38,710 nt of DNA from the IMG/VR virus record IMGVR_UViG_3300009129_000039, positions 1 to 38,710 of that record, one strand, 5' to 3'. The position numbers were made by a program, and so were the translations under genes. Numbering within the stretch: the stretch's first letter is position 1; the number at the start of each line of letters is the position of its first letter. The DNA is from a virus. A model generated the notes under the pieces. The model searched no databases and was not told the origin of the DNA. It was given only the letters and a program-made list of their open reading frames with translations. Shown here piece by piece: positions 1,366-22,763 of the stretch.

Positions 1366-1620
1366 ATATGAAACGGTATTGACCAGTGGATATGACCGTG
1401 GATTGCGCCTGTGAGAGACTCCTATCGTGACAATCTCTCACTATAAATGAAGTCACTGGGGTTATCTACCGAGAAGGTCGCGGGAACATGAGAGAGATTC
1501 CCACATATTATGTTATCTTGAGAGCCATCTAAGGATTGGATAGGGTGGTTCTCAAGACCAATTTATGCACCAAAACAGTGCATACCTCTGAAACCCCTAT
1601 AAACAAAGGGTCTCAGAGGG
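1366..1620 (+). ncRNA. Candidate structured RNA with at least five helices
   Basis: About 255 nt without a usable reading frame, downstream of an extended -10 promoter. Helices visible by eye are: CCAGTG (1383-1388) with CACTGG (1454-1459), enclosing GTGAGAGA (1411-1418)/TCTCTCAC (1434-1441); GGGAA (1482-1486)/TTCCC (1498-1502); a 13-bp stem CTTGAGAGCCATC (1517-1529)/GGTGGTTCTCAAG (1544-1556) with a 14-nt loop; TATGCAC (1564-1570)/GTGCATA (1578-1584) with a 7-nt loop; and CCTCTGA (1585-1591)/TCAGAGG (1613-1619), extended inside by ACCC/GGGT. The last three hairpins are almost back to back. No tRNA, tmRNA, RNase P, riboswitch or intron core is recognised, and no T-run follows the last hairpin. 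Confidence 0.6.
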
Positions 1621-16095: not shown

Positions 16096-16104
16096 AGAGG
16101 TATA

Positions 16105-16215
16105 GTTTTAATAGGGGTCGAAAGACTCGGGTAAGGGACAAGGGTTCTAAATCATCACCAAGTCCACAATTATTATCACGACATGCGTGAAAACTTGAAC
16201 CCACCCCTCCAATTA
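16105..16215 (+). ncRNA. Candidate structured RNA
   Basis: Non-coding, about 110 nt, directly after a promoter. The ends pair: AGGGGT (16113-16118) with ACCCCT (16203-16208). Stacked inside, GGGTTC (16142-16147) pairs with GAACCC (16197-16202). There is a hairpin TCACG/CGTGA (16176-16190). A GAAA tetraloop hairpin GGGTC-GAAA-GACTC (16115-16128) and GGAC (16136-16139)/GTCC (16162-16165) are alternatives that would compete with the outer stem or form a pseudoknot. It ends near a Shine-Dalgarno (GGGAG, 16219-16223) of the next gene, so it could be a switch for that gene. It is not a tRNA: there is no T-arm or anticodon arm. Confidence 0.5.
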
Positions 16216-16229
16216 ACTGGGAGAATTAA

Positions 16230-21863: not shown

Positions 21864-22763
21864 ATGTCTACATCATTAGATAAGTTACGGGCAGCAATGG
21901 AAACTGCCTCTCCTACTCAAGGAGAAAAAAAGTCCTATTCCGATGACAGATTTTGGAAACCCGAACTCGACAAGAGTGGTAATGGGTTTGCAATAATCCG
22001 TTTCCTACCTACCCCCGAAGGTGAAGAAATGCCATGGGTCTCTTATTGGGATCACGGCTTTCAAGGGCCAGGCGGTTGGTATATTGAGAAGTCTTTAACG
22101 ACTCTTAATAAACAAGACCCTGTGTCCGAATACAATACTACATTGTGGAATACTGGGATAGAAGCAAACAAAGAGATTGCACGAAGACAGAAGCGAAGAC
22201 TTCACTATGTGTCAAACATCTATGTTGTTTCAGACCCTAAGAATCCCGACAATGAAGGTAAAGTATTCCTTTACAGATACGGTAAGAAAATCTTTGAACA
22301 GTTGAAGGAAGCAATTTCCCCAGCATTCGAAGATGAGAAAGCAGTTAATCCTTTCGATTTGAGAGGAGAAGGTGCTAACTTCAAAATCAAAATCAGAAAA
22401 GTCGATGGTTATTGGAACTACGATAAATCAGAATTTGATTCTGCAAGTCCATTGTTTGATGACGAAAATCAGTTGAATGATATATATACTTCTGTTCATT
22501 CGTTGTCAGATATTATCTCACCCGAAGAATTTAAATCTTATGACGAGTTGAAAACTAAACTCGAAAGGATTTTAGGACTGACGGGTGGTGTTAGTAATTC
22601 TACAGCTGAATCTATTGCAGAAGACCAAGACGAAGTGCCTTGGGCAGATGTCAATAAAGAGACAGTTGCAGAAGAACCAGTAATTTCAACTGCAGAAGCT
22701 ACAGTCGGTAAAGACGGTGGTGAAGCAATGGATTACTTTAAGAAATTAGCTTCCGACAGCTAA
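21864..22763 (+). CDS. 32: Single-stranded DNA-binding protein gp32
   Basis: 299 residues (T4 gp32: 301). N-terminal LDKLRAAM is the cooperativity domain; WYIEKSLTTLNKQDPVSEYN, HYVSNIYVVSDPKNPDNEGKVF and VNPFDLRGEGANFKIKI are the OB-fold core; the acidic tail ends MDYFKKL. The protein has no cysteine, so the zinc site of T4 gp32 (His and three Cys) is missing, as in cyanophage homologues. It coats ssDNA and organises replication, repair and recombination. A non-coding structured stretch of about 200 bp follows. Confidence 0.95.
   Translation: MSTSLDKLRAAMETASPTQGEKKSYSDDRFWKPELDKSGNGFAIIRFLPTPEGEEMPWVSYWDHGFQGPGGWYIEKSLTTLNKQDPVSEYNTTLWNTGIEANKEIARRQKRRLHYVSNIYVVSDPKNPDNEGKVFLYRYGKKIFEQLKEAISPAFEDEKAVNPFDLRGEGANFKIKIRKVDGYWNYDKSEFDSASPLFDDENQLNDIYTSVHSLSDIISPEEFKSYDELKTKLERILGLTGGVSNSTAESIAEDQDEVPWADVNKETVAEEPVISTAEATVGKDGGEAMDYFKKLASDS

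Follow-up and report, generated by a model that had tools for sequence, protein, structure and literature searches.

Bases 1366-1503 of the window, by which we mean the whole 38,710-nt stretch of viral DNA analysed, almost certainly specify a conserved structured RNA, to judge from comparison with its homologues. This RNA, termed RNA B, is present in about 25 viral contigs representing 15 distinct variants of 90-140 nt (about 138 nt in the window), and it heads a block of phage replication and metabolism genes at the predicted transcript start of a host-type promoter. It is best classed as a phage leader RNA of a new family. Our leading explanation, which we hold at roughly one chance in three, is a cis-acting leader RNA whose action on the transcript would resemble that of the put RNAs of phage HK022. 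The window is a fragment of an uncultured T4-like phage (it carries tail tube, baseplate, DNA end protector and gp32-like families), and the closest isolates share about 22% amino-acid identity with it in one tail protein. RNA B and its parts lie in the window as follows.

1351-1359, + strand: extended -10 promoter TGGTATAAT, recognized from sequence, putting the inferred start of RNA B near 1366
1366-1503, + strand: RNA B, conserved pseudoknot leader RNA (model R2, detection across subgroups, covariation)
1373-1399, + strand: P1 hairpin, ACGGT (1373-1377) with ACCGT (1395-1399) (pairing, permutation test)
1383-1388, + strand: pseudoknot strand a, CCAGTG, within the P1 loop; its partner is 1454-1459
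1411-1441, + strand: 8-bp hairpin GTGAGAGA/TCTCTCAC (1411-1418 with 1434-1441), an insertion in the P1-pseudoknot linker in the window's subtype
1454-1459, + strand: pseudoknot strand b, CACTGG, preceded by an invariant AAG (in GAAG, 1449-1452) (covariation)
1464-1478, + strand: P3 hairpin, ATCT with AGGT, conserved loop ACCGAGA (pairing, covariation)
1482-1502, + strand: P4 hairpin, GGGAA with TTCCC, loop CATGAGAGAGA (AUGAGA in RNA), containing the conserved UGARA

Homologues, fold and covariation

Relatives were gathered by way of contig L021, which was located through a search for hairpin and promoter words and in which the sequence after TATAAT (AACGGC-TTGACTAGAG-TATATG-CCGTGAATTGCG) is alike in outline to that of the window (AACGGTATTGACCAGTGGATATGACCGTGGATTGCG). 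Gene X, found upstream in both, was aligned and used as a query; it returned 29 loci, among which six contigs besides L021 have the RNA at the equivalent position. Element C and its variant, used as search patterns, then enlarged the set to its full size. One contig is 99% identical to the window and uninformative for covariation. The landmarks concerned, with a further small gene, are these.

1116-1316, + strand: gene X, 66 aa, located before RNA B in most relatives
1841-2014, + strand: gene Y, 57 aa, with homologues directly 3' of RNA B in several relatives
2034-2055, + strand: element C, AAACAGTnnnnnGGGACTCCTA, a second untranslated leader element conserved in relatives

Element C is kept in about 20 contigs (the window, L018, L021, L036, L057-L070, L075, L077 and L078), often with an A5-T8 tract some 70 nt 3' of it, and eight contigs have a variant form with TGTTAAGGCATCGGGATG. 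A scan of bacterial genomes gave two matches to element C, both judged to be chance.

The fold of RNA B runs in the order P1, pseudoknot from the P1 loop, P3, P4. P1, the pseudoknot and P3 occur in every variant, P4 in all except one, and the P1 stem is merely 3-6 bp long; the 8-bp linker hairpin is missing from L036 and from group 2. The initial annotation had drawn an outer helix at 1383-1459 around that 8-bp hairpin. The pairing does exist, and is actually a pseudoknot with P1, which had gone unseen. Its two strands change together from relative to relative: CTAGAGT/ACTCTAG, CTATACT/AGTATAG, CTGAGA/TCTCAG, CGTAGA/TCTACG, CTGATA/TATCAG, CAGAGA/TCTCTG, CGATA/TATCG, CTAGA/TCTAG and TCACG/CGTGA. 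When partners were swapped among variants, none of 100000 permutations was as well paired, for each of P1, the pseudoknot, P3 and P4. In the 15-sequence MAFFT alignment, after manual trimming of the variable linker, 99% of the pseudoknot helix is paired, with two-sided changes at 7/7 pairs, and the covariation score for pseudoknot plus P3 is 0.767, against 0.199 +- 0.037 for shuffled and <=0.168 for slid partners. Compensatory change in metagenomic homologues, the check that the initial annotation had proposed, thus bears out its multi-helix non-coding RNA behind an extended -10 promoter.

Hand segmentation of the helices underlies the permutation test and the trimmed alignment; this trimming has no bearing on the untrimmed alignment or on two covariance models, and the two tool alignments and two models agree. 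The untrimmed group-2 MAFFT alignment, with linkers kept, has the pseudoknot 98.6% paired, 5/7 pairs changed on both sides and a covariation score of 0.517 against <=0.091 for slid partners. Model R2 was built from four group-1 sequences only (the window, L028, L061 and L036), and it detects group-2 members exactly at the RNA B site: L075 (5e-6), L064 (2.8e-5), L030 (4e-4) and others, these E-values being rough since calibration was short. Its match in the window, at 1367-1509, scores 138.5 bits, the window being one of its own training sequences. With models R1 and R2 there is one convincing match per record, the virus records searched being fragments, and R2 finds a single copy in the window.

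Some unpaired bases are as constant as the fold. AAG before pseudoknot strand b is found in 15/15 variants, UGARA in the P4 loop in 14/15, and a P3 loop of CCGA type (ACCGANA/CCGA) in most. In most variants the conserved P4 loop contains AUG (1488-1490 in the window), which would open very short frames (M-R/K-...). A leader peptide begun there was rejected as the main function: in L060 the triplet is CUG, in L055 it is missing, and the short frames are unconserved.

The initial annotation had found no known family to fit, and this holds. No Rfam 15 family matched anywhere in the window at the gathering score, and RNA B matched no family at permissive thresholds either; a permuted-tmRNA match at 986-1175 (14.5 bits, E = 2.6) was set aside as chance. 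A nucleotide search of annotated phages with the window and two homologous loci gave zero matches.

Folding energy and the neighbouring hairpins

A single RNA over 1366-1620, of a stability unlikely to arise by chance, had been proposed. The stability claim is right for the stretch as a whole: on the + strand z = -3.9, with 0/200 shuffles equally stable, and on the - strand z = -5.95. The excess, however, is confined to 1504-1620 (z = -6.4), and the RNA B part alone, 1366-1503, has z = 0.0. The stretch is two different things, and the single RNA has to be given up, since three strong hairpins lie outside the conserved one.

1516-1557, + strand: strong 15-bp hairpin, seen in the window and its 99% identical relative and nowhere else
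1564-1584, + strand: 7-bp hairpin, likewise seen in these two alone
1585-1619, no strand assigned: H element, a 35-bp palindrome CCTCTGA-N21-TCAGAGG (11 bp with one mismatch), upstream of the next promoter (1635-1664)

All the helices first described are where they had been placed; the 13-bp hairpin of 1517-1556 extends to 15 bp. An ordinary folding energy is what one would expect if RNA B merely reflected chance pairing in AT-rich sequence, or if the conserved element worked as DNA and had no function as RNA. Against this stand cross-detection by R2 and the compensatory changes that 15 variants show in a pairing between distant strands, which make such a reading extremely improbable; covariation already contradicts chance unless the alignments are wrong. 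Screens based on folding energy would overlook RNAs of this sort, in which the conserved part is energetically unremarkable and the conspicuous neighbouring hairpins are unrelated.

The H element is probably a DNA operator, and looks like that of an early regulator. Its spacing is 21 in four of four distinct copies, with none at any other spacing from 0 to 59 in the loci examined, and it sits 2-15 bp ahead of the TTGAC of host-type promoters. Among the other copies the right arm is kept and the left arm varies; variation of that kind destroys an RNA stem but need not destroy a DNA site, which favours the operator reading. Besides 1585-1619, sites were seen at 1054-1065 of the window and in L018, L021, L036 and L111. 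Just upstream of the palindrome, L018 (1650-1850) and L019 (1720-1920) (- strand) have AAGTGTTAATCTCTCTACAGTAGTAGACCTGATCACT repeats followed by a strong intrinsic terminator, a region resembling a further phage small RNA.

Promoter, gene block and possible roles

The promoter before RNA B in the window has a real-looking extended -10 about 7 nt upstream of it and lacks a good -35. In 15/15 variants a -10 precedes P1, by 7-28 nt (median 12), and in 13/15 P1 begins at about +1 to +10 of the predicted transcript. What lies between RNA B and element C differs by relative: nothing, gene Y, a second promoter, or hairpins. Beyond this, all contigs with enough sequence share a co-directional block of 15-20 kb encoding a DUF6552 membrane protein, a carbamoyltransferase, an IscA-like protein, a PDDEXK nuclease, an exonuclease, a radical SAM protein and gp32, the last within 15-19 kb of RNA B in relatives and about 20 kb away in the window (homologue at 21864). 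The block has additional promoter-like sites of its own, and on the + strand of the window the 20 kb downstream hold only one weak site like an intrinsic terminator. No terminator or ribosome-site platform after RNA B is conserved among relatives, and identity falls from 41% in the core to 27% over the following 100 nt.

Other untranslated stretches of the window lie behind promoters too. One, element A (917-1053), follows a TTGACT-18-TATAAT promoter and has 5' sequence in common with L021 785-930 (- strand); the L021 counterpart ends in a strong terminator (GC stem, T7), and the element is possibly a separate small RNA. Another, of about 120 nt (16096-16229), follows TTGACC-18-TATAAT before a small gene and has a possible pseudoknot (GGAC/GTCC plus GGGTTC/GAACCC). 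Neither was accepted as an extra copy of RNA B, the descriptor scan for P1-pseudoknots behind promoters being too unspecific. A swapped promoter spacer was seen in a near-identical locus: TTGACT-ATGACCCCGCTATTCTGA-TATAAT at 887-916 of the window versus TTGACA-ATGCACCCAAGCTTCTGC-TATAAT at L002 4216-4245.

Since the downstream content varies and there is neither a conserved terminator nor a ribosome-site switch, we infer that RNA B acts in cis on the whole transcript, and a cis-acting 5' leader is the probable description of it. The initial annotation had suggested an early regulatory or decoy RNA. Early expression is plausible given the host sigma-70-type promoter, and a regulatory role fits the leader position; a decoy lacks support because no conserved terminator would free RNA B and because its place is invariably at the start of one and the same gene block. 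The same two facts tell against any trans-acting small RNA cut from the leader, as does the want of a conserved unpaired stretch usable as a seed. The fold is compact, and in the window and L036 a new promoter follows, so that the genes could dispense with the RNA B transcript; even so, a trans-acting product is unlikely.

A riboswitch or autogenous protein operator, in which the loops would bind a metabolite or phage protein and tune the first genes, has somewhat better prospects, though it too is doubtful. A pseudoknot that holds conserved unpaired bases is a typical aptamer feature, and the T4 gene 32 leader carries a pseudoknot operator (PMC3014915). However, the sequence after P4 is unconserved, no terminator or ribosome-site pairing is common to the relatives, the downstream neighbour varies, and the gp32 gene of the window lies at a distance of 20 kb.

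The place of P1 so near the 5' end raises another possibility, that the P1-pseudoknot fold at the terminus protects the leader against decay dependent on the 5' end, so that the long message survives. A fold maintained despite sequence drift and an unconserved downstream platform suit this, but the conserved unpaired bases (AAG, ACCGANA/CCGA, UGARA) exceed what simple blocking needs and P1 is short. We regard such protection as nearly as likely as put-like action.

The put-like reading, which we place first, is a conjecture: nascent RNA B would fold on leaving RNA polymerase and, like HK022 put RNA, would render the transcription complex processive across the 15-20 kb block. Antitermination of this kind is a tentative proposal. 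The few + strand terminators downstream count against it, so that a need for antitermination is not evident unless Rho matters, and so do the internal promoter-like sites and the single copy of RNA B, unlike putL and putR. Somewhat more speculatively, RNA B may form a class of its own among nascent-RNA elements, modifying the host RNA polymerase with no phage protein involved; uncultured marine T4-like phages would then have a pseudoknotted equivalent of put.

Beyond a handful of models, tailed phages have yielded few structured RNAs. The marine T4-like phage Melnitz, like cyanophages, is without identifiable middle promoters (PMC9004378), which makes the timing of long gene blocks in such phages a question. 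As a covarying leader with a defined pseudoknot and conserved loops, RNA B offers a concrete object on which to test RNA-based control of transcription or of message stability.

Comparison with known systems

Riboswitches in general have a conserved expression platform after the aptamer; RNA B is followed by poorly conserved sequence and differing neighbours. Melnitz has a glutamine riboswitch and a two-piece tmRNA (PMC9004378), and the window gave no Rfam glnA match and no accepted tmRNA match. Conversely, a search of Melnitz for RNA B yielded no believable match, the one R2 match (E = 0.04) being discarded because it overlaps a coding start.

The T4 gene 32 leader resembles RNA B in that a message of a T4-like phage has a pseudoknot within its 5' leader. 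In T4 the pseudoknot is 67 nt ahead of gene 32 and is bound by gp32 (PMC3014915), whereas RNA B has two more hairpins and is far from the gp32 homologue (1366 against 21864), a distance on which identity with the gene 32 autogenous operator was rejected.

In the pistol ribozyme, as in RNA B, the P1 loop pairs with a downstream strand adjoining P3, giving the same order of P1, loop-to-junction pseudoknot and P3 (PMC4604425), and a self-cleaving ribozyme of this topology has to be considered. In pistol, however, a P2 helix encloses the pseudoknot strand and P3. This helix is absent from RNA B (summed best runs 44 versus 38.8 expected, the level of shuffles), the conserved loops are unlike, and there was no Rfam covariance-model match, to pistol or any other ribozyme, at E <= 10. 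Identity with pistol was rejected on the missing P2, and self-cleavage is very improbable.

In setting RNA B resembles HK022 put, also a phage RNA that forms the structured leader of an early transcript. putL lies directly behind an early promoter and counters both pausing and termination (PMC9378689). RNA B, too, lies behind a host-type promoter, with its -10 before P1 in all variants, the -35 in the window being poor. put is about 70 nt with two stem-loops, whereas RNA B is longer, at 90-140 nt, and combines a pseudoknot with two hairpins; put has two copies per genome (putL and putR), whereas RNA B has one per record, the records being fragments. put acts on terminators via the zinc-binding domain of the RNA polymerase beta' subunit. 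By anatomy RNA B is not a put RNA, but it may work like one.
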